The translations under genes were made by a program, and so were the position numbers. Positions 44,987 through 63,430 of a DNA stretch of 64,000 bases are shown here, one piece after another. The stretch spans positions 2,294,001-2,358,000 of the forward strand of contig NZ_CP128362.1 in assembly GCF_034274695.1 (NCBI RefSeq), written 5' to 3'. Origin of the DNA: Chitinophaga sp. LS1 (GTDB taxonomy: Bacteria > Bacteroidota > Bacteroidia > Chitinophagales > Chitinophagaceae). Numbering within the stretch: the stretch's first letter is position 1; the number at the start of each line of letters is the position of its first letter. The notes under the pieces were generated by a model. That model was not told the origin of the DNA and did not search any database. It was given only the letters and a program-made list of their open reading frames with translations.

Positions 44987-45292
44987 AAAGAGCGTGTATC
45001 AAAAATAAATAAACCTCCTCAGAAGTGCTTAAAGGACTACCTATCTCCATTAGGTATCCGGATAAAACGAGGCTGTATCTTACTTAAGATACGGCCTCGT
45101 TCTTTGAAAATAGTTTTCATTCCCCGTTGGAAAATTCTCCTCTTTCGTGACTGTTTTATTCAGATACCTAATGGATCCAGGTTTTTATTTATTCGATTCT
45201 CAGGTTTTTTATTTATTTTATAATACAACCTCTTTTCTGAAAATGGTTTCATTCCCCGTTGGTGAATTCCCTTTTTCATGAATGTTTTATTT
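44987..45292. repeat. Compound intergenic repeat element
   Basis: Several repeats are nested here. AAAGAGCGTGTATCAAAA at 44987-45004 also occurs at 28576-28593. CCATTAGGTATC at 45047-45058 is inverted as GATACCTAATGG at 45163-45174, and the latter also occurs at 28619-28630. A 16-bp hairpin lies between them at 45066-45101. A direct repeat of about 55 bases, both copies containing TTCATTCCCCGTTGG, sits at 45105-45160 and 45238-45292; the second copy covers the end of the minus-strand gene. This looks like a family of non-coding repeats dispersed between genes. Confidence 0.6.
45066..45101. terminator. Hairpin terminator in the repeat element
   Basis: A 16-bp stem (45066-45081 against 45086-45101, one wobble) with a 4-base loop, followed by TCTTT on the plus strand. 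It separates the Oar-like gene from the converging minus-strand gene. Confidence 0.65.
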
Positions 45293-49415: not shown

Positions 49416-49714
49416 AGTGGTAGTTTTTTGTTGTTGATTACGATACAAACTTTCATCTTTTCCCGCCGGGCAAAAATTCTTTTAGACCAAAGTGATGTCT
49501 TACCCAACGAAATGATCACACCGTAGGCATCAAGGATTTTGAAAAACAGGAAAAATGGGGGAAGAAGGGGTGTTTTTGGGAGATTACTCACCAAAATTTG
49601 AGCTGGAAAACCCCCTTAGATAAGGAAATACGCCAAAAAAAACATATCTTCATTAAGTATTGTAGAAAATGACCCAAAGAGAAGGCACTGATTTATAATT
49701 GTTTAGAGGCGGAC

Positions 49715-50824
49715 ATGAAAAAACCCTTTGATTTTACCCGACTACTTATCCCGGAGAATGTAAAGTATGTGCACATCGTATTCTGGTGTATTATGTTGAT
49801 CCTGTATACCCTGAATATTATGTTCCTTTACTCGACGAACGGACTTATTTCCCTCATGTTTGGTTTAAGGAACTTACTGGGGGCCATGTTTTTCTTTTAT
49901 TTCATCTTTTATGTACTGGTACCGGTTTTCCTGAACAGGAAGGAACGGATACTGTTCTTTGCAGGCCTCCTGGTTCCCTTCTGGATCTGGGCAGTGATCA
50001 ACTATTCCTTTATGTCACTGCTTATTAACTATTTTACGATAGCAGACAGGGATCTACTGGCCTCGGTAAAGGTGATTGCTGACAAATCTATCTGGCAGAT
50101 CATGGCGCCACACACCATTTTGCAGACCTCCATCGGGGTGCTCATGATCGTAACGCCGCCTATTACCATAAAACTCGTCGAGGAAATCTCCCGATCAGTC
50201 AACAGGGCCCTCCGGTTGGAAAGAGATAACCTGAACCTGGAAGTGAGTTTTCTACGATCCCAGCTAAATCCACACTTTTTATTCAACACGCTCAATAATA
50301 TCTATTCGCTGTCTGTCAGAAATAATCCCAGGGCACCTGAATTAATTATGCAGCTCTCCGATATGCTGCGTTATACCCTGTACGAATCAAACCGCGAAGA
50401 AGTAGAATTGTCAAAAGAAGCCGATTTTTTATATAACTATGTTCAACTGGAAAAAGCCAGGTATGGAAAGGATGTAGATATTCAGTTTGTATACGATGCT
50501 GAATCCCTGGAGGGATATAAGATCGTACCGTTGCTGACATTCCCGTTTATCGAGAATTCATTTAAACACGGGCTGGATACATCAACCCAAAATCCATGGC
50601 TGAAGATTTCATTTGAGGTGGCGGACAATACCCTCTTTTTTGAAATCGCAAATAGTAAAGGGGACGAATCATTATTTAAACATCATAAAGAATCCGGAAC
50701 GGGGGGGATAGGGATTGCAAATACGAAAAAACGCCTATCCTTGTTATATCAGAATAAGTACTCATTATCCATCAACAATAGTCCGGATTCCCATAGCATC
50801 AACCTTAATATAACTCTTATCTAG
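49715..50824 (+). CDS. LytS-type sensor histidine kinase
   Basis: A 369-residue membrane kinase. Four membrane helices lie in the first 150 residues, then a coiled linker, then the HisKA-type LytS domain with the phospho-acceptor His187 in SQLNPHFLFNTLNNIYSLS, an N box (PLLTFPFIENSFKHGLD) and a glycine box (GTGGIGIANTKKRLSLLY). It pairs with the LytTR regulator two bases downstream. It stands beside the acyl-peptide cluster and is its likely controller, though this is inferred from position only. Confidence 0.92.
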   Translation: MKKPFDFTRLLIPENVKYVHIVFWCIMLILYTLNIMFLYSTNGLISLMFGLRNLLGAMFFFYFIFYVLVPVFLNRKERILFFAGLLVPFWIWAVINYSFMSLLINYFTIADRDLLASVKVIADKSIWQIMAPHTILQTSIGVLMIVTPPITIKLVEEISRSVNRALRLERDNLNLEVSFLRSQLNPHFLFNTLNNIYSLSVRNNPRAPELIMQLSDMLRYTLYESNREEVELSKEADFLYNYVQLEKARYGKDVDIQFVYDAESLEGYKIVPLLTFPFIENSFKHGLDTSTQNPWLKISFEVADNTLFFEIANSKGDESLFKHHKESGTGGIGIANTKKRLSLLYQNKYSLSINNSPDSHSINLNITLI

Positions 50825-50826
50825 CC

Positions 50827-51567
50827 ATGAAGAAAATCAAATGTATCATCGTAGATGATGAGCCGTTATCCCGGGAATTGTTAGAAAGTCATATCGAGCG
50901 CATACCCTTCTTAGAACTTGTCAAATCCTGCGCAGATGCTTTCGATGCGATAGACATATTGCAGACAGATACCATTGAGCTCCTGATCACAGATATCCAG
51001 ATGCCGAGAATCAATGGTCTGGAACTGATCAAATCATTGTCTAATCCGCCCTTCCTGATTTTTGCCACTGCCTATTCCAACTATGCGATCGAGGGGTACG
51101 ACCTGAATGCGGTAGACTTTTTACTAAAGCCTATTTCGTTCGAAAGATTTTTAAAAGCGATCAATAAAGCAAAGAAAGATATTGATCAGAAAGCAGGAGA
51201 AGCAGCAGCAGTCGCTCCTGCACCAGTGAGCGCCACACAGCTGCCACAGCACCTGTTTGTAAAAGACGGACACAAGTTGTCAAAGATCCTGTTCGAAGAT
51301 ATTCTGTACATCGAAGGCATGAAAGATTACATTAAAATAGTCACGAAACAAAAGAATGTAGTGACTTACATGCGTATGAAGAGTATTGAAGAAGTACTGC
51401 CTGAAACACAATTTGTACGTATACATAAGTCTTATATTATTCACCTGCCTGCTATTAAATCAGTAGTAGGGAATTCAATTGAATTGATAAATAATGAATC
51501 AATCATCATTTCAAAACAACATAAACAAATGTTGATCGATCGATTGAATGTAGCTGGTAAAGTATAG
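50827..51567 (+). CDS. LytTR-type response regulator
   Basis: A 246-residue regulator with an N-terminal receiver (DDEP at residues 10-13, phospho-acceptor Asp56 in LLITDIQMP, Lys in FLLKPISFERF) and a C-terminal LytTR DNA-binding domain (LFVKDGHKLSKILFEDILYIEGMKDYIKIVT, about residues 142-172; VRIHKSYIIHLPAIKSV). An alanine/proline-rich hinge links the two. It is the partner of the LytS kinase. A terminator follows, so the target operon at 51907 has its own promoter region. Confidence 0.93.
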   Translation: MKKIKCIIVDDEPLSRELLESHIERIPFLELVKSCADAFDAIDILQTDTIELLITDIQMPRINGLELIKSLSNPPFLIFATAYSNYAIEGYDLNAVDFLLKPISFERFLKAINKAKKDIDQKAGEAAAVAPAPVSATQLPQHLFVKDGHKLSKILFEDILYIEGMKDYIKIVTKQKNVVTYMRMKSIEEVLPETQFVRIHKSYIIHLPAIKSVVGNSIELINNESIIISKQHKQMLIDRLNVAGKV

Positions 51568-51906: not shown

Positions 51907-52314
51907 ATGGAACTTAAAAATTACAGCACAGTATCGAATGCCTTCTACAAGGTGGTGCAGGCTGGAGCAAAAATAGATGAACTGATCACAGCCATCAAAA
52001 CCACCAGCCTGCCTGCATCTGAGAAGTATGCGTACCAGGCGTTCTGTTATGCGATGATGGCGAGAGAAGCTTCCGGAATGTTGCAGAAAGGAAAATATAT
52101 TCAGCAGTACGGTGAGTTCATTGGCAAATCGATCGTGATCAACAATGATTGTTTCGAAGCAAGACTGATGCGCTTCATTGTAGAAAAGAAATTGTCTGAC
52201 GTCGGTTTTGTAAGTCACAAAGAAACAGACATTGCATTCCTCTCGACCAATGTCGAATCCATACAGGACGATTGTTTAAAGCATGTAACCTTAAAAGCCC
52301 TTTCAAATGTATAA
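51907..52314 (+). CDS. Small conserved-looking protein at operon start
   Basis: A 135-residue soluble helical protein that I do not recognise. Helices such as NAFYKVVQAGAKIDELITAI (about residues 10-29), SEKYAYQAFCYAMMAREASGML (about 37-58) and NDCFEARLMRFIVEKKLSD (about 79-97) suggest a TPR-like bundle. It overlaps the acyl ligase gene by 8 bases, so the two are translationally linked and its function is probably tied to acyl activation or to the synthase. It may be a scaffold or chaperone. Confidence 0.6.
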   Translation: MELKNYSTVSNAFYKVVQAGAKIDELITAIKTTSLPASEKYAYQAFCYAMMAREASGMLQKGKYIQQYGEFIGKSIVINNDCFEARLMRFIVEKKLSDVGFVSHKETDIAFLSTNVESIQDDCLKHVTLKALSNV

Positions 52315-53710
52315 GGACTCATTTTTCATCCCTTTCAAAGAACATCACGACTCGATCATAATAGATGCTACACAGTCGAAGAGTTATACCTATGAAGAAG
52401 TGTATAGCCAGATTGAAGGTATAGCTGCGGGCATCGAAGCGTTGCAACTGGCAAAACATTCTATCGTAGTGATCTATGGCTACAAGAATGCATTCAAATC
52501 ATTGCTGTTGTTTTTCTCCTGTCTGAAATGCGATCTGATCCCATTCCTGGTAGAAACAGGCGGATTGAGTAAAATCACAGATCTCAAGTTCAACGCACTC
52601 ATTGCAGAAGCAGCTGTAACAGATAGTATCGTAGAAAACGCCACTGCACAAAAAGTAAATGATGCATACGTTTATTACAACCTGCACGATGATATTTATA
52701 TAGGCGATGAAAATGATCTGCTGGTAGTATCCAGTTCCGGCACTACCGCAGGCACTCCTAAGAAGATACTGCTGGGCAAACAGCAAACCATTGCAAACAT
52801 TGCCTCCAACAGAGAAGCGATGGCTATCACAAAGGATGATGTGACGCTTGTATTACTACCTGTATCATACTCCTACGGCCTCATCGCACAGTTCCTTACA
52901 CACTTCTTTACAGGTGCAAAGATCGTACTGGGCGAAAGATTGCTGGGCATCTTACAACTACCACAGCTCTTTCAGAAACACCAGATCACGAATGTGTTTA
53001 TGACGCCCCTGTTGGCAAGACTCATCTTATACTACTATCAGAAGATACCTAAGATCAAAAATAATCTGCGGTTCATGACCATGGGAGGAGATAAGCCACA
53101 CCTGCCTACATTCCAGAATGTATTCAGACTGTTCAGCTGCTCTATCTATAGCACCTATGGCCTGGCTGAAGCGGGACCCAGAGTCGCAACCTGCAAATAT
53201 ACAGACGTACCCGAACAGGATAGTGAAGCCTGCATTGGCCTTGTCAATCCAGGTATCACCCTCCGGGTTGCACACACAGAAAAATACCAGGACAAGTACA
53301 ACGATACGCCCATTGGCTATCTGCAAATAGAAAGTCCTTCCATCTACCTCGGTTATATCAGGGGCAATGTGCTGGACAAACCAGCTTCCAATGCGGTACT
53401 CACGACAAAAGATATTGTGGTGAAGAAAGATAACCGCTACTTTATACTGGGTAGGGAAGGAGATTTCATCGAGTACAAAGACAGGATCATCTGGTTCAAT
53501 AGTCTCTCCGATGAACTCTATCATGCGCCCGAAGTACTGAAAGTAAGTATCCGGAAAGATAGTGAAGACAGAATGGAAATAGGCGTCTTTCACAGAAATA
53601 AGATCAACGTGCCCGAAGTGGAACAGGCGCTGAAAGATAAGTACGACCTGCACGCAGGGGATCACTATGACCTGAAATTAATAGAATTTAATAATACCTA
53701 TTACAAATGA
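52307..53710 (+). CDS. AMP-dependent acyl ligase (short form)
   Basis: A 467-residue ANL-superfamily ligase that should activate a carboxylic acid as acyl-AMP and load it on the ACP or CoA. The P-loop-like motif SSSGTTAGTPK (about residues 142-152), the YGLAE motif (about 284-288) and the later KDIVVKKDNRYFILGREGDFI (D and GR-type hinge) are present. The chain ends at EFNNTYYK, where family members usually have PxTxxGKxxR with the catalytic lysine; only the final Lys could stand in for it. It therefore lacks a normal C-terminal end and may act at reduced scope or with a non-standard lysine. It overlaps the phosphopantetheinyl transferase gene by 4 bases. Confidence 0.8.
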   Translation: MYKDSFFIPFKEHHDSIIIDATQSKSYTYEEVYSQIEGIAAGIEALQLAKHSIVVIYGYKNAFKSLLLFFSCLKCDLIPFLVETGGLSKITDLKFNALIAEAAVTDSIVENATAQKVNDAYVYYNLHDDIYIGDENDLLVVSSSGTTAGTPKKILLGKQQTIANIASNREAMAITKDDVTLVLLPVSYSYGLIAQFLTHFFTGAKIVLGERLLGILQLPQLFQKHQITNVFMTPLLARLILYYYQKIPKIKNNLRFMTMGGDKPHLPTFQNVFRLFSCSIYSTYGLAEAGPRVATCKYTDVPEQDSEACIGLVNPGITLRVAHTEKYQDKYNDTPIGYLQIESPSIYLGYIRGNVLDKPASNAVLTTKDIVVKKDNRYFILGREGDFIEYKDRIIWFNSLSDELYHAPEVLKVSIRKDSEDRMEIGVFHRNKINVPEVEQALKDKYDLHAGDHYDLKLIEFNNTYYK

Positions 53711-54312
53711 CCCGGCTATTCATTGCTGAAATAAAACCAGCTGCTGATGACAGCTGTATGGATACGATCAGACATCATTTCAGCGATGAATTAGTAAACA
53801 GACTAACGAAATCTCCGGGTACGGGACACTGGTTAAAAAGGGTGACTTCCAGGTTAATGCTTGTAAGGATCTTCAAGGAACTGGGGCTGGACACAACGCT
53901 GCTCAGGGAACTGCATTACAACCCGCATGGAAAGTTAGTGATGGATAAGGGGATCCTCAATATATCTATCTCCTATAGCAACAGTATCGTAGCATGTGTA
54001 GTGAGTGAAAACAAAATAGGGGTGGACATAGAAGACGTAAGTGCGCCTCCCACCAGCAAAACAATGACCCTGCTGGAAAAGTGGACAGGCAGAAAGGTAA
54101 AGGATCAGATGGATTTCTTTATGCTATGGACCCAAATAGAATCGATCGCCAAGCTATACGACGACAAGGGACTTGCTGATATATTCTACGGCAATCTGCT
54201 ATCAGAAAAACATTATACCAGACAATATCTTTTAAATCACAATTACCTCGTATCCATGTCTGCATTGACATGCCTGGATACTGTTGACCAAATAAAAACA
54301 TTGACTATATGA
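53707..54312 (+). CDS. 4'-phosphopantetheinyl transferase
   Basis: A 201-residue Sfp-type enzyme that attaches the phosphopantetheine arm of CoA to Ser46 of the ACP encoded downstream. GVDIED (Asp107, Glu109) binds magnesium, and WTQIESIAK (Trp141, Glu145, Lys149) is the second signature. NISISYSNSIVACVVSENK (about residues 85-103) replaces the more common FNLSHS block. It overlaps both neighbours by 4 bases, so the operon carries its own ACP-activating enzyme. Confidence 0.87.
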   Translation: MTRLFIAEIKPAADDSCMDTIRHHFSDELVNRLTKSPGTGHWLKRVTSRLMLVRIFKELGLDTTLLRELHYNPHGKLVMDKGILNISISYSNSIVACVVSENKIGVDIEDVSAPPTSKTMTLLEKWTGRKVKDQMDFFMLWTQIESIAKLYDDKGLADIFYGNLLSEKHYTRQYLLNHNYLVSMSALTCLDTVDQIKTLTI

Positions 54313-54767
54313 CAACGGCAGAATTTGATACCCTGAAGCCTTCCGCGCTACTACCCCACAGAGAGCCAATGTTGCTGGTGGACAAGGTACTGCACACAGA
54401 TTTTAAAAATACCATTACCACCGAAACCGAAATAGGGGAAGACATGATATTCCTGAAAGGACACTTTCCCGGTTATCCCTTACTACCAGGTGTAATCATT
54501 ATCGAAGCCATGTTCCAGGCATCTGGTGTACTCAACAGAGTCGCTACGCTGGATAGAGATGGTGAAGCACAACAGAAGAAGAAATTGGGCAAGGCAGTGA
54601 AAGTTAAATCTGCCGTGTTCTACAAAGAAGTGTTACCCGGAGATAAACTCGTGATCACATCTGAACGCATCAAGAATATATTAAACTTCAGCGAATACAA
54701 GGCGACAGCCACAGTGAACGGTGAAGTAGTATGTAAAGCAGAAATCACTTTATCTATTAGCATATGA
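54309..54767 (+). CDS. FabZ-like 3-hydroxyacyl-ACP dehydratase
   Basis: A 152-residue hotdog-fold protein. GHFPGYPLLPGVIIIEAM (residues 51-68) carries the catalytic His52 and Glu66 pair of FabZ. LLPHREPMLLVDKVL (about 14-28) is the usual FabZ entrance. It removes water from 3-hydroxyacyl-ACP to give a trans-2-enoyl chain. With a ketoreductase but no enoyl reductase next to it, the chain would keep double bonds. It overlaps the following ketosynthase-like gene by 4 bases. Confidence 0.9.
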   Translation: MTTAEFDTLKPSALLPHREPMLLVDKVLHTDFKNTITTETEIGEDMIFLKGHFPGYPLLPGVIIIEAMFQASGVLNRVATLDRDGEAQQKKKLGKAVKVKSAVFYKEVLPGDKLVITSERIKNILNFSEYKATATVNGEVVCKAEITLSISI

Positions 54768-55939
54768 AAAATAATAACAAAATTCTGATCACTGGCCTTG
54801 GCAGCATTTCCCCACTGGGATATGGATCTGCCGCCGCATGGGAGAAAATACTCGCAGGTGAGAATGGCATCAAAATAAAAACCAACTGGGCCAATGCAAG
54901 TATTCAACCCCAGTATTACGGTGAAGCACCTGTTGTAGAATTTGCAGGCGAAGTAAAATGGGATGATCGGTTCCCTCCCCAGCAATACTCCAAACTCGGT
55001 CTGCTGGCCTGTAAGAAGGCCCTCGACGATGCAGGCATTGTACTCGAAGCCTCTGACAACGAAATCGGCCTGGTCATAGAAACCAGCCTCGGTGCTACGG
55101 CTAGTGTAGAAGATTACCTGTATGATCTGTACCGGTTCGGGTTACAAAAAATAAGCCCGGTGAAGTTTACGAAGACTGTTGCCAATACCGTATTGGGTGA
55201 CATATCAAGAGTCTTCAAACTGAATGGTCCCAGCTCTTTGATCTATAATTCCAACAGTATCACCTACGGGTTTGACCTGATTAAAAAAGGTCTTGCAGAT
55301 ATAGTGATCTGTGGTGGAGTGGATCACTACACAGAGTTCAGGGTGCTTAGTGAACAGGAAAGCAATCACCTGGTCAATGTAAATGAAGAGACGGATGCAT
55401 ACAGTGCTGCTACAAAAGAGCCGGATGACCGCCGCAATATACTGGGAGATGGCGCCGCCTTCCTGGTGCTGGAAAGTGAAGACAGCGCAGCACGCAGAGG
55501 AGCCAAACGATATGCAGAACTGGTAGAATACCACAGCTGCTTCGACTACCAGAATGTGGAAGATACCACCCGTCGCTCACCAGCAGTCGTAAAGTCTGCG
55601 ATCGATGCACTCAAACCCATCGTAACCGCCAGCGGTAAGTTAGTCTACCTGAGTGCTTACACCACTGCCGAACAACTGGAACACAGCGAACGGCACCTGT
55701 TAGAAGACCTGAATAAACAACACGAAACTTACAGCCTGCGGCACAAAGCCTACACTGGTGATATGAAATCGGCCAGCAGCATTATGGGGGCAAGCATTGC
55801 CAGCCAGATCCTGTACAGTGACCGGTTCCCTGAACCAGATGCAGCGGGAGAATATCCTTCCGGATTCGGTTATGCCCTGGTCAATACAAGCCACGAAGGT
55901 GGCGGTAGTTCTCATCTCTTACTTAGAAAAACACATTAA
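54764..55939 (+). CDS. Ketosynthase-like chain-length-factor protein
   Basis: A 391-residue thiolase-fold protein related to FabF. Where the catalytic Cys block TACASG is expected, it reads SSLIYNSNSITYG (about residues 147-159), so the Cys is gone and about five residues are deleted. The NAHGTGT and GHTLGAAG histidine blocks are also missing; KAYTGDMKSASSIMGASIA is what remains of the second. The KS scaffold is otherwise kept (ICGGVDHYTEF, ILGDGAAFLVLES). This is the pattern of KS-beta or chain-length-factor proteins that pair with a complete KS, here the gene at 56706. Context: dehydratase before it, ketoreductase after. Confidence 0.8.
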   Translation: MKNNNKILITGLGSISPLGYGSAAAWEKILAGENGIKIKTNWANASIQPQYYGEAPVVEFAGEVKWDDRFPPQQYSKLGLLACKKALDDAGIVLEASDNEIGLVIETSLGATASVEDYLYDLYRFGLQKISPVKFTKTVANTVLGDISRVFKLNGPSSLIYNSNSITYGFDLIKKGLADIVICGGVDHYTEFRVLSEQESNHLVNVNEETDAYSAATKEPDDRRNILGDGAAFLVLESEDSAARRGAKRYAELVEYHSCFDYQNVEDTTRRSPAVVKSAIDALKPIVTASGKLVYLSAYTTAEQLEHSERHLLEDLNKQHETYSLRHKAYTGDMKSASSIMGASIASQILYSDRFPEPDAAGEYPSGFGYALVNTSHEGGGSSHLLLRKTH

Positions 55940-55941
55940 TC

Positions 55942-56691
55942 ATGAAGAATATTTTCATCACAGGCGGTTCCAAAGGAATCGGCAAAGAACTGGTAAAAAC
56001 CTTCGCCAGACTGGGTCATCAGGTTGTATTCACCTACCAGTATTCAGCAGAAAGCGCACAGAAAATAGTGGAAGAACTCCACGCAGAAGGTTTCCCAAAT
56101 GTATACACCTTCAAGTGCGACATGGGCAATGAAGCAGAAGTAAAAGCCCTGTTCAAATCCAACAAAGAGATCCTGAGAGATGTGGATGTACTGATCAACA
56201 ACGCAGGTATCCGCGACAGCAAGCTCAATGCAAACCCCAAGCCTTTCCTCATGACGTCGGGTGCAGAGTGGTGGGAAGTGATGCACAACAACGTGAATGG
56301 TGTAATGAATACCAGTCGTGCAGTACTGCCATCTATGATCAAAAGAAAGAACGGCAGGATCATCAATGTGACTTCGCTGGCAGGTATCAAAGGCAACCCC
56401 GGACAATCGGCTTATGCCGCTTCCAAAGCCGCCATCAATTGCTTCTCCAAGTCCTTGAGCAAGGAAGTAAAGGGCATGGGTATCATCATCAACTGTGTGG
56501 CGCCTGGCTTTATCGAAACAGATATGGTAGACAATCTTCCTGATCAATATGTAAGCAACAGGGTGGGTAATAGTCTGCTAAAGCGGATGGGTACCACCGA
56601 TGAAATTTCGAACTTCATCTCTTACCTGGCACTGGAATGTCCCGAATTTTTAATCAACCAGGAAATCGTGATCGATGGTGGTATGAACTAA
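55942..56691 (+). CDS. FabG-like 3-ketoacyl-ACP reductase
   Basis: A 249-residue classical SDR. GGSKGIG (residues 8-14) binds NADPH, NNAG (86-89) stabilises the fold, and Ser145, Tyr158 and Lys162 form the catalytic set in VTSLAGIKGNPGQSAYAASKAA. Length and the final IVIDGGMN are typical of FabG. It reduces the 3-keto group made by the ketosynthase pair. It lies between the chain-length-factor-like gene and the complete ketosynthase, with gaps of 2 and 14 bases. Confidence 0.92.
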   Translation: MKNIFITGGSKGIGKELVKTFARLGHQVVFTYQYSAESAQKIVEELHAEGFPNVYTFKCDMGNEAEVKALFKSNKEILRDVDVLINNAGIRDSKLNANPKPFLMTSGAEWWEVMHNNVNGVMNTSRAVLPSMIKRKNGRIINVTSLAGIKGNPGQSAYAASKAAINCFSKSLSKEVKGMGIIINCVAPGFIETDMVDNLPDQYVSNRVGNSLLKRMGTTDEISNFISYLALECPEFLINQEIVIDGGMN

Positions 56692-56705
56692 AAAAACTAT
56701 GTAAC

Positions 56706-57917
56706 ATGAAAAAGAGAGTCGTTGTTACCGGTATCGGTGCCATATCAGCACTAGGCAATAATATAGCTGAAATGACAGAAAGCCTCGAAAATGGCAGCAT
56801 CAAATACAATGCAATTCCATCAGACAGGTTTAGCACCGCCCACAAACTATTTGCCAACAACAGGGGATTTATGATGGATTATGAACTCTATCAGAGCTCC
56901 TGGGACAAAGATGTATCCATCATGAGCGAAGTAGCCGTAAAGTGTATACAGGAGGCGATAGATAGCGCAAACCTGTCAGAAGAAATACTGCACGAGCACA
57001 ATGCAGGTCTCATCATCGGTACATCAGTAGGGGCCAGTTTTCCCATCCTGCAGCGAATCAAGAAATCAGTGCAGGAAAATGAGGATGACTATGAGCTGGC
57101 GCTGTATTCGACCCCCAAGATCTTAGGCAAGATCGCCCGCGCTTTCAAACTACAGGGATACGTTTCTGCCATCTCCACAGCCTGTGCTTCCGGCACAAAC
57201 TCGATAGGCAGGGCCTTTGACCTGATCGAAAACGGAAAGGCCGATATCATGATCAGTGGTGGAATGGACATCTTTACGGAGCTCACTTATACAGGGTTCA
57301 ATAGCCTGATGGCTATCTCCAAAACCAAGTGTAAACCCTTTACCAAATCAAGAGATGGTATGTCGCTGGGTGATGGGTGTGCCATCCTGATCCTTGAAAG
57401 CCTGGAATCGGCTGTCGAAAGGGGAGCGCCCATCTATGCAGAGATCAAAGGGTATCACATATTAAACGAAGCCTATCACGCTACAGCACCTCATCCGGAT
57501 GGCATCTATGCACTGAAGTGTATGAAGAGTGCCCTTGCATATGGTGGTATGAGTACAGATGATGTGGATTACATCAATGCACACGGTACGGGTACCGGCA
57601 AGAATGATAGTGCGGAACTAAAAGGGTGTGAAGCCTTGCTACAGGAAAAGACCAGTAAAACATATGTAGGGTCTACCAAGTGCCTCACCGGTCATACCCT
57701 GGGTGCAGCAGGCAGCATAGAAGCGATCATCAGCATCCTGAGTATGCAGCACAATGCCCTCTATGCAAACTACGAGGCGGACGACCTGCCTGAATCTGAA
57801 AAGATCGAATTCGTCACACAAAACAAAAATAACATTCCGCTGGATACAGTATTGTCCAACTCCTTTGGATTCGGCGGAAACATGGCCAGCATTTTATTAA
57901 CAAAATATAAAAACTAA
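56706..57917 (+). CDS. Beta-ketoacyl-ACP synthase (complete catalytic set)
   Basis: A 403-residue FabF-type ketosynthase with all catalytic residues: Cys160 in AISTACASG, His293 in NAHGTGT and His330 in CLTGHTLGAAG. It condenses malonyl-ACP with a growing acyl chain and probably forms a dimer with the defective partner at 54764. The ATG at 56706 is chosen, not a frame reaching back into the ketoreductase gene, because MKKRVVVTGIGAIS is the usual KS start. No malonyl-CoA:ACP transacylase is encoded in the cluster, so that step is probably shared with primary fatty acid synthesis. Confidence 0.92.
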   Translation: MKKRVVVTGIGAISALGNNIAEMTESLENGSIKYNAIPSDRFSTAHKLFANNRGFMMDYELYQSSWDKDVSIMSEVAVKCIQEAIDSANLSEEILHEHNAGLIIGTSVGASFPILQRIKKSVQENEDDYELALYSTPKILGKIARAFKLQGYVSAISTACASGTNSIGRAFDLIENGKADIMISGGMDIFTELTYTGFNSLMAISKTKCKPFTKSRDGMSLGDGCAILILESLESAVERGAPIYAEIKGYHILNEAYHATAPHPDGIYALKCMKSALAYGGMSTDDVDYINAHGTGTGKNDSAELKGCEALLQEKTSKTYVGSTKCLTGHTLGAAGSIEAIISILSMQHNALYANYEADDLPESEKIEFVTQNKNNIPLDTVLSNSFGFGGNMASILLTKYKN

Positions 57918-57947
57918 AAATTTAAAAACCTTTAAAAACTTATAATT

Positions 57948-58223
57948 ATGGAACACAAAGTAATCGAACAAAAAACTAAAGAAGTTCTCATCAGCGTACT
58001 GAACCTGAACAAATCAGTTGATGAATTATCTAACGATCAGGCCTTGTTTGGCAATGACGAAAACCCCGGATTGTTTGACGACAGCCTGGCAGTACTGGAA
58101 GTGACTTCTGTACTGATGGCAGAATTCGAACTGGAAGCATCTGACTTCGGCGAAGAAAGCTTCAAGACAGTGGGTACCCTTGCGCAGCGCATCTATGATG
58201 TATTGCACCTGGCAGTTGTATAA
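57948..58223 (+). CDS. Acyl carrier protein
   Basis: A 91-residue acidic helical protein with the phosphopantetheine site Ser46 in GLFDDSLAVLEVTSVLMAEFELE (DSL motif). Helix order and length are those of type II ACPs. It carries the chain made by the synthase genes before it and stands directly in front of the precursor peptide array. Its ATG follows an A/T-rich run with TTTAAAAACTT, which resembles the sequence before each precursor gene. Confidence 0.92.
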   Translation: MEHKVIEQKTKEVLISVLNLNKSVDELSNDQALFGNDENPGLFDDSLAVLEVTSVLMAEFELEASDFGEESFKTVGTLAQRIYDVLHLAVV

Positions 58224-58239
58224 CCGTAATTCAAGCCCC

Positions 58240-58341
58240 ATGCAAAAAGAACTAGTCAAAAACGGTCTTTCTAACATTGTGTCACCGGAGGGTGTGCGTA
58301 GCATCAGAAGGCCTTTCAGGCAGGTTTGCATCAATAAGTAA
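58240..58341 (+). CDS. Short peptide of 33 residues with near-terminal Cys
   Basis: A small open frame, MQKELVKNGLSNIV then SPEGVRSIRRPFRQVCINK, between the ACP and the precursor array. Like the array peptides it starts with MQ and has one Cys close to the end (VCINK), but the body is basic and otherwise unrelated. It could be another precursor, a cofactor peptide, or a chance frame. Confidence 0.35.
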   Translation: MQKELVKNGLSNIVSPEGVRSIRRPFRQVCINK

Positions 58342-58386
58342 GCTACCCCCGGTTTAACCCACTCATCAACCAAAATTTATATCAAC

Positions 58387-58479
58387 ATGTCCATGCTCGA
58401 ACTCAACGTAGTAGAACTGGAAACCCGTCTTGAACTGGCTGGTGCTACTGTGATCGATTCAATCGAAGTAAACTGTTAA
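58387..58479 (+). CDS. Precursor peptide 1 (divergent first copy)
   Basis: A 30-residue peptide: MSMLELNVVELETRLEL followed by AGATVIDSIEVNC. It is the first of ten tandem copies. From ELN onward it has the same 26-residue length as copies 4-10. Its tail (ATVIDSI) matches copy 10 more than the inner copies, so both ends of the array seem to keep an older form. The single Cys is the last residue. Leader/core division near residue 17 is inferred. Confidence 0.75.
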   Translation: MSMLELNVVELETRLELAGATVIDSIEVNC

Positions 58480-58511
58480 TCATTTTCATAAACAATTTAA
58501 AACTTACACAC

Positions 58512-58595
58512 ATGCAGGAAACAACTATCGTAGAACTGGAAAGCCGCATAGAGCAGGCAGCAGCAGCAATCGACATCACAATCAATTGCGACTAA
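58512..58595 (+). CDS. Precursor peptide 2 (short variant)
   Basis: A 27-residue peptide: MQETTIVELESRIEQ followed by AAAAIDITINCD. It has two fewer Ala than the main type and an extra Asp after the Cys. Copy 3 is identical in protein and differs by a silent change only. Confidence 0.75.
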   Translation: MQETTIVELESRIEQAAAAIDITINCD

Positions 58596-58628
58596 TTAAC
58601 ATTCATAAACAATTTAAAACCTACACAC

Positions 58629-58712
58629 ATGCAGGAAACAACTATCGTAGAACTGGAAAGCCGCATAGAGCAGGCAGCAGCAGCAATCGATATCACAATC
58701 AATTGCGACTAA
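58629..58712 (+). CDS. Precursor peptide 3 (short variant)
   Basis: Same 27 residues as copy 2, with one silent GAC to GAT change in the tail. The two copies lie 117 bases apart and share their upstream sequence (CATAAACAATTTAAAAC), which points to a recent duplication. Confidence 0.75.
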   Translation: MQETTIVELESRIEQAAAAIDITINCD

Positions 58713-58745
58713 TTAACATTCTTAACCCTTTTAAAACTTAACAAA

Positions 58746-58832
58746 ATGCAGGAATTAAACATCGTAGAACTGGAAAACCGCGTAGAACTGGCGGCAGCCG
58801 CAGCAGCAATCGACATCACAATCAATTGCTAA
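58746..58832 (+). CDS. Precursor peptide 4 (main type)
   Basis: A 28-residue peptide: MQELNIVELENRVEL followed by AAAAAAIDITINC. This is the commonest form (copies 4, 6, 7, 8, 9). The leader part is acidic and helical; the tail is hydrophobic and ends in the only Cys. It is preceded by CCTTTTAAAACTTAACAAA and followed by the array hairpin at 58842-58860. Confidence 0.8.
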   Translation: MQELNIVELENRVELAAAAAAIDITINC

Positions 58833-58900
58833 TTGCTCAGAAGCTATTCATGCAATAGCTCATTGAACATCTTTTTTCAAACCTTTTAAGACTTAACAAA

Positions 58901-58987
58901 ATGCAGGAATTAAACATCGTAGAACTGGAAAGCCGCGTAGAACTGGCGGCAGCTGCAGCAGCAATCGACATCACAATCAATTGCTAA
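58901..58987 (+). CDS. Precursor peptide 5 (Asn to Ser variant)
   Basis: Identical to the main type except Ser for Asn at residue 11 (VELESRVEL). The tail AAAAAAIDITINC is unchanged, and an extra silent change lies in the Ala run. The gene starts 155 bases after copy 4. Confidence 0.8.
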   Translation: MQELNIVELESRVELAAAAAAIDITINC

Positions 58988-59054
58988 TTGCACAGAAGCT
59001 ATTCATGCAATAGCTCATTGAACATCTTTTTCAACCCTTTTAAAACTTAACAAA

Positions 59055-59141
59055 ATGCAGGAATTAAACATCGTAGAACTGGAAAACCGCGTAGAACTGG
59101 CGGCAGCCGCAGCAGCAATCGACATCACAATCAATTGCTAA
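59055..59141 (+). CDS. Precursor peptide 6 (main type)
   Basis: Main-type 28-residue peptide; its coding DNA is identical to copy 4. Followed by the hairpin at 59151-59169. Confidence 0.8.
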   Translation: MQELNIVELENRVELAAAAAAIDITINC

Positions 59142-59208
59142 TTGCACAGAAGCTATTCATGCAATAGCTCATTGAACATCTTTTTCAACCCTTTTAAAAC
59201 TTAACAAA

Positions 59209-59295
59209 ATGCAGGAATTAAACATCGTAGAACTGGAAAACCGCGTAGAACTGGCGGCAGCCGCAGCAGCAATCGACATCACAATCAATTGCTAA
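59209..59295 (+). CDS. Precursor peptide 7 (main type)
   Basis: Main-type peptide with the same DNA as copies 4 and 6. The following hairpin (59305-59323) has loop CATAC where others have CATGC. Confidence 0.8.
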   Translation: MQELNIVELENRVELAAAAAAIDITINC

Positions 59296-59364
59296 TTGCA
59301 CAGAAGCTATTCATACAATAGCTCATTGAACAACCTTTTTTCAACCCTTTTAAAACTTAACAAA

Positions 59365-59451
59365 ATGCAGGAATTAAACATCGTAGAACTGGAAAACCGC
59401 GTAGAACTGGCGGCAGCCGCAGCAGCAATCGACATCACAATCAATTGCTAA
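59365..59451 (+). CDS. Precursor peptide 8 (main type)
   Basis: Main-type peptide with the same DNA as copies 4, 6 and 7; spacing to the next copy is 154 bases. Confidence 0.8.
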   Translation: MQELNIVELENRVELAAAAAAIDITINC

Positions 59452-59518
59452 TTGCACAGAAGCTATTCATGCAATAGCTCATTGAACATCTTTTTCAAAC
59501 CTTTTAAAACTTAACAAA

Positions 59519-59605
59519 ATGCAGGAATTAAACATCGTAGAACTGGAAAACCGCGTAGAACTGGCGGCAGCCGCAGCAGCAATCGACATCACAATCAATT
59601 GCTAA
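59519..59605 (+). CDS. Precursor peptide 9 (main type)
   Basis: Main-type peptide. The following hairpin (59615-59633) has loop CATAT, again with an unchanged stem. Confidence 0.8.
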   Translation: MQELNIVELENRVELAAAAAAIDITINC

Positions 59606-59673
59606 TTGCACAGAAGCTATTCATATAATAGCTCATTGAACAACCTTTTTCAAACCTTTTAAAACTTAACAAA

Positions 59674-59760
59674 ATGCAGGAATTAAATATCGTAGAACTG
59701 GAATCTCGCGTTGAACTGGCAGCAGCTTCTGTGATCGATTCTATCACAATCAATTGCTAA
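59674..59760 (+). CDS. Precursor peptide 10 (divergent last copy)
   Basis: A 28-residue peptide: MQELNIVELESRVEL followed by AAASVIDSITINC. The tail shares VIDSI with copy 1. Codon choices (TCT, GTT, GCT) differ from the inner copies, so it has not been homogenised with them. It ends the array; no array hairpin follows. Confidence 0.78.
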   Translation: MQELNIVELESRVELAAASVIDSITINC

Positions 59761-59830
59761 TCACAGCAGCCTGTAACCACCGGCAGGAGAATGCGAACCC
59801 CCAATTTATAACAGTCTAAAATCGATTCCC

Positions 59831-59911
59831 ATGAAAAGAATAGATCCTTGTTATAAGTCATTACCCAAAGTTGGTGTTGGTGTATGTTACCCGGCAATAT
59901 ATGATCACTAA
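59831..59911 (+). CDS. Short two-Cys peptide of 26 residues
   Basis: A small open frame, MKRIDPCYKSLPK then VGVGVCYPAIYDH, behind the array and directly before a hairpin. Cys7 and Cys19 sit before aromatic residues (CY twice). It is unlike the array peptides. It may be a further precursor or an unrelated small peptide; position between array and M50 gene makes it worth noting. Confidence 0.4.
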   Translation: MKRIDPCYKSLPKVGVGVCYPAIYDH

Positions 59912-59940
59912 TGATGGGCATTTGATAAAAATGCCCATCA
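59912..59940 (+). terminator. Hairpin between precursor array and M50 gene
   Basis: A perfect 12-bp stem TGATGGGCATTT / AAATGCCCATCA with a 5-base loop, starting right after the stop codon at 59911. The tail is only TTTAAAAA, so it may end some transcripts and let others pass. That would make precursor mRNA more abundant than mRNA for the maturation enzymes. Confidence 0.6.
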
Positions 59941-59966
59941 TTTAAAAACCCTTCAAATCATTTTAT

Positions 59967-61175
59967 ATGAATCCTCTACAAACAGAAAATTCCTTGTTAA
60001 ACTATGATTACTCAATCACCAGTGCTTCTAACAATGAATTTGTACTTTCCTACGAGGGCAAGTACTTCAAGATAGGCGAGTTCATGTATCAGATCTTAAG
60101 GGAAGGCCAGCAAGCCAAATACCTGGAAGACTTACAAGCCCGACTTGATAACGTCAGCCTGGCCGGCCTGAAAGAAATAATAGACACAAAGATTTTGCCC
60201 ATCTTCAAAACCACAGAAAGCAAAGCCAGTGAAGCGTCCGACGATGGATTCTGGTATAAGAAGCAAGTTCTTTCCAGCAGGCAATCCACCACACTGGCCA
60301 AACCATTGTCCTTTCTGTTTGGCAAATCATTCTACTTCCTGTTCCTGTTACTAACAGGTGTAAACTTTGCGCTCTATTCCCGTACACACAGTATCGTAGC
60401 CAACGATGACCTGCCACTGGGAACAGAGATACTGACCTGGGTCGCCTCTTACTTTTCCCTCTTCTTCATCATGTTTGTGCATGAACTGGGTCACACAGCC
60501 GCTGCCTATAAATCAGGTATCAATGCCAGGAGTATAGGCCTTGGATTCTACACCATCATGCCAGCCATGTATACCGACCTGACGGATGTATGGACAGTGT
60601 CCAAAAGCAACAGAATAAAAATCAACCTGGCAGGAATTTATATTCAATTGATCATCAACCTGGGCCTTGTAGCAGCATTGCATACCACTAGCAACGATTT
60701 TGCACAAAGCTTTGTCTGGAAGATCTATGTGTTCAACAGTGTGCTCATGGTGGCGAACCTTGTACCACTCTTAAAGCTCGACGGCTATTGGGTATTATCA
60801 GACTTCCTCGGTGTACCGAACCTGATAAAGACATCCAATGAACTACTCCTGAATGCGGTCACTAAGAAAGACCCGTTCGCAGAAGAGCAACCCCGCGACT
60901 ATAGCTTTAAAAAGATCTTACTGGTTGTATATACCATCATTCGCGTATCGTTTATCATATTCGTCACCTTTATGGCATTTGCCTTTATATATGCCTCCAT
61001 ATTGAAGACAATTGCACTGATCAGGTATATACCTTACCTGAGTTTTAATTTCGAGACGGCCATTGAAGTGCTCAAGCGCATAGTGACCATAGTGATCATA
61101 TCACTGTTTACCCGGAAGTACAGGAAGCTATTTTCAAACGTCATTTTAAAACGTGTAAAATGGTACAGAGCATAA
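59967..61175 (+). CDS. M50-type membrane metalloprotease with PqqD-like N-terminus
   Basis: A 402-residue integral membrane protease. The zinc site is VHELGHTAAAYKSG (His172, Glu173, His176) within a membrane segment, and NLVPLLKLDGYW (Asn264, Asp272) is the second M50 block. About six membrane helices are visible. The first 90 residues (NNEFVLSYEGKYFKIGEFMYQILREGQQAKYLEDL) have the strand-strand-strand-helix look of PqqD-like RiPP recognition elements, as found in peptide-modifying enzymes. It probably binds the ELNIVELE leader and cuts the peptide at or in the membrane. It overlaps the hydrolase gene by 16 bases. Confidence 0.82.
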   Translation: MNPLQTENSLLNYDYSITSASNNEFVLSYEGKYFKIGEFMYQILREGQQAKYLEDLQARLDNVSLAGLKEIIDTKILPIFKTTESKASEASDDGFWYKKQVLSSRQSTTLAKPLSFLFGKSFYFLFLLLTGVNFALYSRTHSIVANDDLPLGTEILTWVASYFSLFFIMFVHELGHTAAAYKSGINARSIGLGFYTIMPAMYTDLTDVWTVSKSNRIKINLAGIYIQLIINLGLVAALHTTSNDFAQSFVWKIYVFNSVLMVANLVPLLKLDGYWVLSDFLGVPNLIKTSNELLLNAVTKKDPFAEEQPRDYSFKKILLVVYTIIRVSFIIFVTFMAFAFIYASILKTIALIRYIPYLSFNFETAIEVLKRIVTIVIISLFTRKYRKLFSNVILKRVKWYRA

Positions 61176-61918
61176 ATAAAAATGCGGATGAATGCCTGAT
61201 ATTCTTTAACCCCATGAGTTCAGACAGCCGCTTCTGGACAACCAATATTCCCAAGGATCTATTGGAGCGCTTTGAGGTCATCTTTTACGAATATCCAGGC
61301 TACAACAGGCCATTTATCAAGCTGGAAAATTTTAAGGAACTGGCCCAATATATCGACAAAGAAGTACTGGATCATATACATAAACCCATACACCTGGTCG
61401 GTTATAGTTACGGAGGTCTCCTGGTACAGCACTTATTGAATCTGAACCGTCACAATATCAAGTCTGCCGTACTGATAGCATGTGCCAACAGAATTCTGGC
61501 AAGAGATAAAGAGCTGCTGTCTGTACTGAAAAAAGTGAGTGATGTAGATATGTACCTTTTCTGTAGGGTACTGAGTCTCTTCTCTCATGGTTACGAAGAC
61601 TTCAACAAGAATCCATTGATCGGGTTACAGAAGTTTTCAAATCTGAAACTTTCTATACCTGATAAGGTTCCTATTATCCAGCAGATGAATCACATTATCC
61701 GTACCTCGCGGATCGAGATTCGGCCACAGTCTACGAGGGCGATGCTGCTGTATGGATCGGAAGACAAGATGATCGACATGGATACGTTGGATAGTCTACA
61801 TGAATATTTAGAAAATCTGAGTTTTAAAAAATTGATTGGTGAAGCACACATCATTGATCCAACGAAAATGTTTCATCACATTCATCAATTCCTAAAAACA
61901 GAGGAATATGCAATCTAA
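61160..61918 (+). CDS. Alpha/beta hydrolase (thioesterase-like)
   Basis: A 252-residue alpha/beta hydrolase. The nucleophile elbow is GYSYGG (Ser83), the acid is in LLYGSEDKMIDMDT (about residues 194-207) and the His in GEAHIIDP (about 229). The size and NPMSSDSRFW... YEYPGYNRP start fit type II thioesterases and small esterases. In this cluster it could release chains from the ACP, edit wrong ones, or act on the acyl-peptide. It lies between the M50 and acyltransferase genes, overlapping both. Confidence 0.8.
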   Translation: MVQSINKNADECLIFFNPMSSDSRFWTTNIPKDLLERFEVIFYEYPGYNRPFIKLENFKELAQYIDKEVLDHIHKPIHLVGYSYGGLLVQHLLNLNRHNIKSAVLIACANRILARDKELLSVLKKVSDVDMYLFCRVLSLFSHGYEDFNKNPLIGLQKFSNLKLSIPDKVPIIQQMNHIIRTSRIEIRPQSTRAMLLYGSEDKMIDMDTLDSLHEYLENLSFKKLIGEAHIIDPTKMFHHIHQFLKTEEYAI

Positions 61919-63020
61919 AAATTTAAGGCTCGAAATATTCGAGGAAAGCAAGCAGGAACTGAAAGTATCATTTGAAAAGAAGTGGGAAAGCCACAGTCTG
62001 CAGACGTTTCAGTTCCTGTCTGCCAACCTTTCGAGGTGTCTGCCAGCAATGCCGGAATCCCAGCATAAAAGCGCCTATTTCGATATCCTGTCTTACAAGG
62101 TGCTACAAGGGATCGATACACAGTTCAGTTCAAAGTTCAGTGGTATAGACGACTTTAATGAATTTAATTATGATGAAATTAAAAAGCATTTGCCAGCGCT
62201 GTTTGTTTCTTATCATACAGGTTCATACAGATCAGCCATTGCTTTTTTGGTGAAGTACAATATTAATGTAGTGCTGATAGCAGATCCGCTTGCTTACAAG
62301 TTTAACCTGGAGAAAATGATGTACCAGTTCCAGCTGGTGAAAGATGCATTCAATTCTACTTCAGAATTCATCGTATTTCCTGCTGATAGAGCAGACCTCG
62401 CTTTGCAGATTATGGGTAAAATGAAACAGGGCTATTCAGTACTGGCTTATTTAGATGGCAATTCCGGATCCAATGGTTATCTGAACCGGGATAACAGCCA
62501 GCAGATCCCATTCTTCGGTCAGGAAATGTTTGTGAGAACAGGTTTGCCTACATTGTCATTCTATCTGAAAGTGCCTATCATACCGATGTTGTCATATTAT
62601 GATGAGCGCTTACAGCCCAGGTGGAATGTGTATGATCCTATTGCACCGCCTAAGGGAGAACGGAATCCTGCAGCTTATGTAGATCAGAGCATTCGCTATT
62701 TGTATAGCATATTGGAAAATGCATTGCAGACATATACTATGCAGTGGGAGGGGTGGATGTTTATACACCGGTATCTGACTATAGTAGCTCCTGATGCGGG
62801 TATACCATCCAGTCTTACAAATATAGCGATCAATGATAAAGCTGGGTTGTTCATGCTCGATGGCAGGTACTATATATTGAATAGAGAGAATTACAAATTG
62901 ATGGAACTTGATAAAGATGTCTTCCATTTGTTTAACAATAAAAACCGGGACGCAATTATAGACCGTCCATTGGCAGATGTTCACCTACTTTATAAAAATA
63001 GATTCTTAATTCATAACTAA
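61908..63020 (+). CDS. LpxL-like acyltransferase with PqqD-like C-terminus
   Basis: A 370-residue protein. Residues about 95-285 resemble LpxL/HtrB-type acyltransferases: ALFVSYHTGSYRSAIAFL (His103), EFIVFPADRADLALQIMGKMKQGYSVLAYLDGNSGSNG and QIPFFGQEMFVRTGLPTLSFYLKVPIIPM follow the family order. The HX4(D/E) catalytic pair is altered: position 108 is Arg, so the usual acid is absent. The last 70 residues (KAGLFMLDGRYYILNRENYKLMELDKDVFHLFN) look PqqD-like, a second possible leader-binding domain. It is the best candidate for joining the ACP-bound chain to the peptide. Confidence 0.7.
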   Translation: MQSKNLRLEIFEESKQELKVSFEKKWESHSLQTFQFLSANLSRCLPAMPESQHKSAYFDILSYKVLQGIDTQFSSKFSGIDDFNEFNYDEIKKHLPALFVSYHTGSYRSAIAFLVKYNINVVLIADPLAYKFNLEKMMYQFQLVKDAFNSTSEFIVFPADRADLALQIMGKMKQGYSVLAYLDGNSGSNGYLNRDNSQQIPFFGQEMFVRTGLPTLSFYLKVPIIPMLSYYDERLQPRWNVYDPIAPPKGERNPAAYVDQSIRYLYSILENALQTYTMQWEGWMFIHRYLTIVAPDAGIPSSLTNIAINDKAGLFMLDGRYYILNRENYKLMELDKDVFHLFNNKNRDAIIDRPLADVHLLYKNRFLIHN

Positions 63021-63025: not shown

Positions 63026-63430
63026 ATGAAAATATTATTTACATCCTTGTTGCTGTTGTCAGCGTTCGCGGGCTTTGCACAGAGAAATTGTTCTATAAAG
63101 GTCAATGTTAGAAATATACTGATCAATAAAGGGGATTTCTATTTCGCGCTTTACAACAAAGAAGGTGACTTTATGAAAGTACCTTTTTCAAAAATCAAAG
63201 TGCCTGCCAGCCGTGTGAAAAACGGAGTGCTGTTTACCAAACTGCCGGCAGGGGAGTATGCGGTTACTATATTTCAGGATCTGAATAGTAACAAGACGCT
63301 GGATAAGGTGATGTCAGTGCCTGTAGAGCCGTATGGGCTTTCTAATAATGTACCGGCTTATCCGACGTATGCGAGTACAAAGTTTACGGTGACGGACCAG
63401 TCATCGATAACGGTAAGTTTAAGGAATTAG
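63026..63430 (+). CDS. DUF2141 family exported protein
   Basis: A 134-residue exported protein with a signal peptide ending at about GFAQR (residue 20). The mature part (KVNVRNILINKGDFYFALYNKEGDFM... FTKLPAGEYAVTIFQDLNSNKTLDKVMSVPVEPYGLSNN) is a beta-sandwich typical of DUF2141. It follows the acyltransferase gene after only 5 bases and could be cotranscribed. Whether it belongs to the peptide system is unclear; such proteins also occur alone. Confidence 0.8.
   Translation: MKILFTSLLLLSAFAGFAQRNCSIKVNVRNILINKGDFYFALYNKEGDFMKVPFSKIKVPASRVKNGVLFTKLPAGEYAVTIFQDLNSNKTLDKVMSVPVEPYGLSNNVPAYPTYASTKFTVTDQSSITVSLRN

Follow-up and report, generated by a model that had tools for sequence, protein, structure and literature searches.

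A Chitinophaga gene cluster that probably makes acyl-modified ribosomal peptides with a type II synthase and an LpxL-like acyltransferase

We analysed a stretch of 64,000 nucleotides from the genome of Chitinophaga sp. LS1 (contig NZ_CP128362.1, positions 2,294,001 to 2,358,000; hereafter the window), which holds at 51907..63020 a cluster that combines the genes of a type II acyl synthase with an array of ten short peptide genes. We conclude that the cluster probably makes a ribosomally synthesized and post-translationally modified peptide (RiPP) that carries an acyl group. This conclusion builds on the gene set, the peptides and their conservation, the co-occurrence of peptides and synthase across genomes, and the predicted folds of two enzymes; from these we infer the acylation itself, the order of the steps, the structure of the chain and the acceptor.

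The cluster is part of a single-contig genome of 8.67 Mb. In plus-strand order, a two-component pair and a small protein are followed by an acyl ligase, a phosphopantetheinyl transferase (PPTase), a FabZ-like dehydratase, a chain-length-factor-like protein (CLF), a FabG-like ketoreductase, a ketosynthase (KS) and an acyl carrier protein (ACP). Downstream of the ACP gene, on the same strand, lie ten short open reading frames (ORFs) and the genes for an M50 protease, an alpha/beta hydrolase and an LpxL-like acyltransferase. The ORFs and their Pfam and NCBIfam matches confirm the set, from ligase to LpxL-like enzyme, that a preliminary description of the stretch had given. The KS retains the Cys-His-His triad, and the CLF has neither the active-site Cys of the KS nor the two His. 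Family matches of the ACP are weak, and the best NCBIfam match of the ligase is AmcH (126 bits against a cut-off of 370); together, ligase and ACP most resemble the cispentacin set in NCBIfam, with scores far under its cut-offs. The Pfam and NCBIfam matches of the ten main cluster proteins include no dedicated enoyl reductase, and the acyl chain is therefore probably unsaturated or hydroxylated, while the resemblance to the cispentacin set makes a short chain possible too. The cluster region recurs at 99.6-99.8% DNA identity in the draft genome of [Flexibacter] sp. ATCC 35208, and a related region in Chitinophaga silvisoli is 85% identical.

The ten short ORFs span 58387-59760 with a start-to-start spacing of 117-156 bases, and a 28-mer query against the whole genome returned exactly these ten matches and none elsewhere. 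They had been described as ten near-identical peptides ending in Cys. The number stands, near identity fits six of them (five are identical) and not the four variants, and the endings in the window are indeed Cys (8/10) or Cys-Asp (2/10). As a defining feature the Cys ending fails: at locus L117, 14 of 15 copies end in Ser, and at L118, 5 of 6 copies end in Leu (L and G numbers designate loci and genomes). We accordingly rejected a terminal Cys as the universal, obligatory acceptor, since L117 has Ser and L118 no Cys at the end. The window-type peptides variously end in Cys, Cys-Asp, Ser, Leu or Val, and none in the invariant C-terminal Thr of daptide precursors. Other Chitinophaga loci have 12 (L116), 15 (L117) and 6 (L118) copies, and C. 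silvisoli has 10 matches distributed over two contigs (L115 and L027); the six copies in the same-species ATCC 35208 draft may reflect assembly collapse. Copies are often identical within one genome, and peptides differ between species. The ratio pN/pS of the peptide ORFs across Chitinophaga genomes is 0.20-0.26 (same-length pairs, which are non-independent), and copy 1 differs between the window and L117 by five synonymous changes and one non-synonymous change.

Relatives were drawn from a scan of GTDB species genomes that gave 126 relatives, of which 80 were retained; these had been pre-selected by one sequence pattern, so that shares among the 80 are not natural frequencies, and some loci share a genome (L028 and G675; L027 and L115, both G671; L011 and L053). 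Near the 81 M50 loci (the 80 and the window), the leader motif L[EDQST].R[LIVMF][EDQST] was found in 152 sense short ORFs at 57 loci; the antisense control at the same loci gave 10 short ORFs in 10 loci. The peptide repeat consists of genuine coding genes: its ten-copy specificity, the low pN/pS and the sense-strand excess of the leader motif led us to reject a chance or non-coding repeat. The precursors have a conserved leader and a variable core, the separate leader and core by which lipidated RiPPs are judged, and the window cores have no Lys or Arg downstream of the leader. The ten peptides matched no NCBIfam family, and five of them compared with Pfam gave weak unrelated matches only (E 0.018 or worse). 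Between peptide copies, in 58833-59673, a 7-base inverted repeat (AGCTATT...AATAGCT) is present, with a longer GC-rich one in L118; these may form RNA hairpins by which the numerous short cistrons are stabilised.

Synthase and peptides occur together. Synthase-positive genomes number 6 of 79 in Chitinophaga, 4 of 158 in Chryseobacterium and 6 of 36 in Spirosoma, and leader-type peptides (VELExRxE or close) adjoin the synthase in all 16, so that synthase clusters without peptides, which the preliminary description had named as a sign against its reading, were not seen (6/6, 4/4 and 6/6 with peptides). In Chitinophaga the ACP profile matched 7 of 79 genomes, six of them true (E <= 3e-29), with peptides directly 3' of the ACP gene and then M50, hydrolase and LpxL-like genes; in C. 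silvisoli a contig break interrupts this run. The seventh match (G665, E 1.4e-8) lies in 20 kb that show neither a KS or CLF nor motif peptides; we took it as unrelated. In Chryseobacterium the CLF profile found the known L037, L043 and L047 (by contig position) and a new cluster, G805, with ligase, FabZ, CLF, FabG, KS, ACP, four peptides, M50, arginase, hydrolase and LpxL-like genes. All six Spirosoma genomes have the ACP, 3 to 7 leader peptides (four in L031), M50 and LpxL-like genes. One of the Spirosoma clusters (G866, L230) has its LpxL-like gene split into ORFs of 126 and 279 residues and is otherwise complete. Beyond these genera the gene set is found in Arcicella and Pseudarcicella, and in an Acidobacteria metagenome-assembled genome (MAG; L046) together with two 23-residue ORFs (ends VVICN and VYICN) ahead of the M50 gene. 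The CLF profile reached E <= 1.1e-98 in six of nine genomes, all six with peptides, a result that is no test of co-occurrence, as the nine were mostly picked for their M50 loci and three contributed rows to the profile. In a class sample it matched 1 of 119 genomes, our own, and in a phylum sample the ACP profile matched 2 of 395, our own and G297 (E 5e-8), which we set aside as a different KS/ACP cluster with no motif peptides in 20 kb.

Peptides without synthase, the converse sign, gave a divided result. The window 28-mer was met only with the synthase, in 5 of 79 Chitinophaga genomes, all of which matched the ACP profile too; in G698, the sixth genome with the ACP, the peptides have diverged and fall under the threshold of this search. 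The wider leader family, on the other hand, regularly occurs without the synthase, which is therefore an extra component of a more general RiPP system.

The predicted structures place a domain like a RiPP recognition element (RRE-like domain) on the M50 protein and another at the C-terminus of the LpxL-like enzyme, which by its family we take to use acyl-ACP. Judging from the models, the domain on the LpxL-like enzyme would be the more telling of the two. In the pathway that we propose, the PPTase would activate the ACP and the ligase would load a starter acid on it, and the KS-CLF pair, FabG and FabZ would extend the chain there. The precursor would be held through its leader (VELExRxE) by the RRE-like domains; the LpxL-like enzyme would grip the leader with its own C-terminal domain and transfer the ACP-bound acyl group to the peptide. 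The membrane M50 protease, with an RRE-like domain of its own, would then remove the leader from the membrane-held product, which TonB-like and small proteins would handle. In relatives the acyl group would go to the side chain of Orn or Lys; in the window it would go to that of Cys, Ser or Thr or to the new N-terminus.

A further line of evidence comes from relatives that carry an arginase-family gene: in 13 of 81 loci such a gene is found no more than 6 kb from the M50 gene. In the five proteins with the best coverage, which were scanned, about 110-120 residues precede the arginase domain. Among the 57 loci with motif peptides, an Arg-Cys core is present in 10 of 10 with arginase versus 2 of 47 without (one-sided Fisher test 1.5e-9; 3.7e-8 if Chryseobacterium enters once, other relatedness being uncorrected). 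The two exceptions are L039, whose contig ends 180 bases past the M50 match, and L102, with one of four peptides. A looser search found precursors containing Arg-Cys in the arginase loci L032 and L033, and none of any kind in the arginase locus L069. Four of five new Spirosoma clusters have arginase, with Arg-Cys in all of their 7, 7, 6 and 5 peptides, as does G805 in 4/4. The fifth (G878) has Val-Cys in 3/3 peptides, and about 40 kb of sequence there carry no arginase label; it shows that a cluster can keep the synthase and do without the Arg. In two LpxL loci without arginase, Lys stands at or near the Arg position: L054 (NKC, LKC) and L059 (one of two peptides, IKFC). L010, L053 and L066 have a Lys shortly downstream of the leader. 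In the window, Asn-Cys occupies the place of Arg-Cys in an alignment by eye, and the cluster has no arginase.

In selidamides, GNATs acylate ornithine (PMC13060382, available in part); by analogy, the relatives with arginase or a core Lys may be acylated on Orn or Lys. The match between arginase and Arg-Cys is an independent sign that cluster enzymes act on the peptides. The arginase profile also matched 135 of 395 phylum genomes, over the catalytic part only and at E 3e-45 or weaker; we take these to be probably ordinary arginase-family enzymes. The available part of a paper on peptide arginases (PMC12703449) does not mention Bacteroid, M50, lipid, Chryseobacterium, ketosynthase or acyltransferase. 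With the co-occurrence and the RRE-like domains, the arginase match supports the earlier suggestion of a ribosomal peptide acylated with a chain made on the adjacent ACP.

No single side chain is common to all window-type cores, and the N-terminus is the only acceptor they share. It is thus possible, at rather low probability, that acylation takes place solely at the N-terminus after leader removal, in the manner of goadvionins, by the LpxL-like or another enzyme. Microvionin, goadvionins and lipoavitides carry such an N-terminal lipid (PMC13060382, in its available part). However, the modelled leader-binding-like domain on the acyltransferase would favour the uncut precursor as substrate, and Arg (with arginase) or Lys in the cores of relatives suggests side chains.

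The leader and the M50 protease reach well beyond the synthase. The M50 protein is present in 8 of 244 genomes of the family, and its profile gave 23 places in 21 of 395 genomes of the phylum sample. Apart from our own and G031, already covered, and 11 weaker places that were left out, ten places in nine genomes were examined, some on short stretches: a motif peptide was found at nine of the ten and an LpxL, KS, CLF or ACP label at none, and the LpxL/synthase branch is therefore the rarer branch of the leader/M50 system. Leader variants (VELENRVEL, VELEERFET, VELEDRFET, LEPRLEL, LEERLEM) resemble each other and the cores differ; to judge by these sequences, several RiPP branches appear to share a single leader/protease system. 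Loci with an LpxL-like gene have precursors in 30 of 33 cases, none being found in L069, L089 and L097 (in this count two of six distinct L031 entries are spurious, and some genomes occur twice). In the genomes of L033, L035 and L042, which have LpxL and arginase, the CLF profile found FabF-like proteins only (best E 2e-44 to 2e-48), and their chain would therefore derive from general fatty-acid synthesis. One of these, L042, is a synthase-free relative from the gut species Segatella copri; it brings the arginase/LpxL branch into Prevotellaceae, where Prevotella cerevisiae (L039) has a similar peptide.

Other loci show further combinations. M50 loci with radical SAM/SPASM maturases are L013, L014 and L015 (L013 and L015 were scanned), and in the Edaphocola pair L013/L014 (again L071/L075) the maturases stand alongside an LpxL-like gene and Cys-rich cores. 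At L050 a KS, an M50 and a weak LpxL-like gene are present and no peptide was found. Outside Bacteroidota, leader motif and M50 occur in L080 and L102 (Chloroflexi) and in L072 (Ktedonosporobacter), with Cys-rich or aromatic cores.

That leader/M50 systems are known without synthase or LpxL, and that an LpxL-like gene is part of a flexirubin cluster, could mean that two systems merely share an operon: a RiPP (peptides, M50 and perhaps the hydrolase) and an unrelated acyl-lipid pathway (synthase and LpxL). We consider this unlikely. The content is kept across Chitinophaga, Chryseobacterium, Spirosoma, Arcicella, Pseudarcicella and the Acidobacteria MAG despite differing gene orders, loci exist with precursor, M50 and LpxL yet without synthase, and the predicted RRE-like end of the LpxL-like enzyme would tie it to the peptides. 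Least probable, in our view, is a pearlin-like scaffold, in which the peptide is a reusable carrier whose C-terminal Cys is acylated or built upon and from which M50 frees a small cysteine-derived product: the window peptides do terminate in Cys or Cys-Asp, and the M50 proteases TglG and TmoG trim C-terminal residues from scaffold peptides (PMC10885120, in its available part), but the ends at L117 and L118 are mostly Ser and Leu, Cys is internal in many relatives, and no peptide-aminoacyl-tRNA-ligase-like match was found among the ten main proteins (Pfam, NCBIfam).

Returning to peptide acylation by the LpxL-like enzyme, we lean towards regarding these clusters as a distinct RiPP class, present in Bacteroidota as well as in at least one Acidobacteria MAG. 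In this class an RRE-bearing lipid-A-type acyl-ACP acyltransferase would couple type II fatty or polyketide chains to short, beta-strand-like ribosomal peptides, some branches having an arginase-made ornithine or a lysine as acceptor and others lying beside flexirubin-type pigment clusters. The preliminary description recognised no family with this gene set, and we found no published account of it in the literature searched, which mostly excludes subscription journals. Lipoavitides, in work of 2024 attributed to Ren, reportedly have their acyl part made by discrete (non-modular) fatty-acid-type enzymes, as we propose here. Unlike them, the window pairs a KS with a CLF, has an LpxL-fold enzyme predicted to bear an RRE-like domain, and gives no match to a lanthionine synthetase.

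In the available part of PMC13060382, lipoavitides are class III lanthipeptides, as are goadvionins and lipolanthines, which carry an N-terminal lipid and are treated with GNATs; microvionin, goadvionins, lipoavitides, selidamides and nostolysamides are all discussed there with GNAT enzymes. Goadvionins and lipolanthines likewise join a ribosomal peptide to a polyketide or fatty acyl chain, yet the ten main window proteins give no match to a lanthionine or avionin synthetase, nor to a GNAT, the acyltransferase fold being that of LpxL/LpxM. With selidamides, the relatives share the pairing of an arginase-family enzyme, a core Arg and an acyltransferase, as for acylated ornithine; the differences are GNAT there versus the LpxL fold here, and a window cluster with neither arginase nor core Arg. 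Daptides have an RRE fused to an intramembrane site-2 protease and the leader motif ELExMEAP (PMC10036551, available in part). They are alike in several short precursors, in a leader close to VELExRxE and in an aliphatic core, the predicted RRE-like domain on the window M50 protein may correspond to the daptide fusion, and FabG matches PF13561, the Pfam family of the Bacillota daptide oxidoreductase. However, the window peptides lack the C-terminal Thr, synthase and LpxL-like enzyme stand in place of the daptide set, whose aminotransferase and methyltransferase are not found among the ten main window proteins, and the M50 protein scores 103 bits against the daptide protease NF041824 (cut-off 300). 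Pearlins and epipeptides also use a membrane M50 protease in a RiPP pathway (PMC10885120, in its available part), whereas the ten main window proteins have no peptide-aminoacyl-tRNA ligase or radical SAM match. The available part of a paper on Bacteroidales RiPPs (PMC10352776) does not mention M50, acyl, lipid, ketosynthase or arginase.

Flexirubin and aryl polyene clusters share with the window a KS, a CLF-like gene, an ACP and an LpxL-like enzyme, but the window KS is just 31-34% identical to the two KS of the flexirubin cluster L012. The FlxA ammonia lyase and the FlxY ligase both match in L012; in the window, NCBIfam gave a match to neither in any of the ten main proteins, a result that covers the best 25 families for proteins 1, 5 and 6. 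In the flexirubin cluster of L012/L049, with its FlxA and FlxY matches, leader peptides and an M50 gene lie directly upstream; L041 and L045, with cores SLLCDF, resemble it by gene order only.

The core genes lie inside 51907..63020, the boundary first proposed, and linked genes lie outside it: homologues of 45287-48817, 49715-51567 and 63026-63430 adjoin related clusters, and the system exceeds that interval (Table 1). Homologues of the TonB-like protein adjoin the cluster in L029, L030, L031, L037, L043 and L047 (E 2e-144 to 2e-62); those of the DUF2141 protein are found in L116, L117, L027, L118, L030, L205, L029, L037, L043 and L047. TonB-like and small-protein homologues thus occur in six or more related loci, and that of the DUF2306-like protein in three. 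Homologues of the two-component pair, whose response regulator is presumably of LytTR type, are present in L116, L115, L117, L030, L207, L010, L011, L053, L031, L035, L065 and L034. The minus-strand ORF 49239-49448 looks to us like a lanthipeptide-type precursor; NCBIfam has no family for it, and among the compared loci it has a homologue in L116 only.

Table 1. Features of the cluster and its surroundings, in window coordinates.
Feature	Position	Strand	Basis
Small membrane protein, probable accessory	45287..45949	-	PF10067 (DUF2306) 5.2e-4, under cut-off; homologues L029, L205, L206
Conserved, apparently secreted protein, probable accessory	45968..46594	-	no Pfam match; homologues L030, L207, L205, L118, L037, L043, L047
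TonB-dependent-receptor-like outer membrane protein with CarboxypepD_reg, probable accessory/transport	46604..48817	-	Pfam
Histidine kinase of two-component pair	49715..50824	+	ORF; cross-locus homologues
Response regulator	50827..51567	+	cross-locus homologues
Small conserved protein ahead of ligase	51907..52314	+	no Pfam match; homologues L115-L118
AMP-dependent acyl ligase, proposed starter loading	52307..53710	+	PF00501 1.2e-30
Phosphopantetheinyl transferase, proposed ACP activation	53707..54312	+	NCBIfam AusB 1.6e-16, under cut-off; no Pfam match
FabZ-like dehydratase	54309..54767	+	PF07977 7.9e-22; NCBIfam FabZ 115.8 bits, above cut-off 113
Chain-length-factor-like KS homologue (CLF)	54764..55939	+	PF00109 1.5e-16
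FabG-like ketoreductase	55942..56691	+	PF00106 1.1e-59
Ketosynthase (KS)	56706..57917	+	PF00109/PF02801; start 56706 set by homology
Acyl carrier protein (ACP)	57948..58223	+	DSL site invariant in 7 aligned sequences (own and six homologues)
33-residue ORF, conserved in Chitinophaga	58240..58341	+	homologues L115, L116, L117; no leader motif
Precursor peptide 1	58387..58479	+	ORF list; whole-genome 28-mer search
Precursor peptide 2	58512..58595	+	whole-genome 28-mer search
Precursor peptide 3	58629..58712	+	whole-genome 28-mer search
Precursor peptide 4	58746..58832	+	whole-genome 28-mer search
Precursor peptide 5	58901..58987	+	whole-genome 28-mer search
Precursor peptide 6	59055..59141	+	whole-genome 28-mer search
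Precursor peptide 7	59209..59295	+	whole-genome 28-mer search
Precursor peptide 8	59365..59451	+	whole-genome 28-mer search
Precursor peptide 9	59519..59605	+	whole-genome 28-mer search
Precursor peptide 10	59674..59760	+	whole-genome 28-mer search
26-residue ORF with two Cys, no leader motif	59831..59911	+	Chitinophaga homologues L116, L117, L027
M50 site-2 protease with a fused, predicted RRE-like domain; proposed as leader peptidase	59967..61175	+	PF02163; model, fold matches
Alpha/beta hydrolase, thioesterase-like	61160..61918	+	PF00561 6.6e-12; PF00975 1.1e-8
Acyltransferase of LpxL/LpxM fold with a predicted RRE-like domain at its C-terminus; proposed to acylate the peptide	61908..63020	+	
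DUF2141 protein, probable accessory	63026..63430	+	PF09912 2.1e-20

If the proposed pathway is correct, the cluster would represent a lipidation of ribosomal peptides that does not use GNATs, in which an LpxL-fold enzyme is steered by a peptide-recognition domain and fed by a dedicated type II synthase; such an enzyme may permit programmed acylation of peptides. The leader VELExRxE and the predicted RRE-M50 and RRE-LpxL fusions provide a genome-mining handle for apparently undescribed lipopeptides of Bacteroidota. The question of the acceptor becomes directly testable through the match of arginase with Arg-Cys, to which Spirosoma adds one natural contrast.

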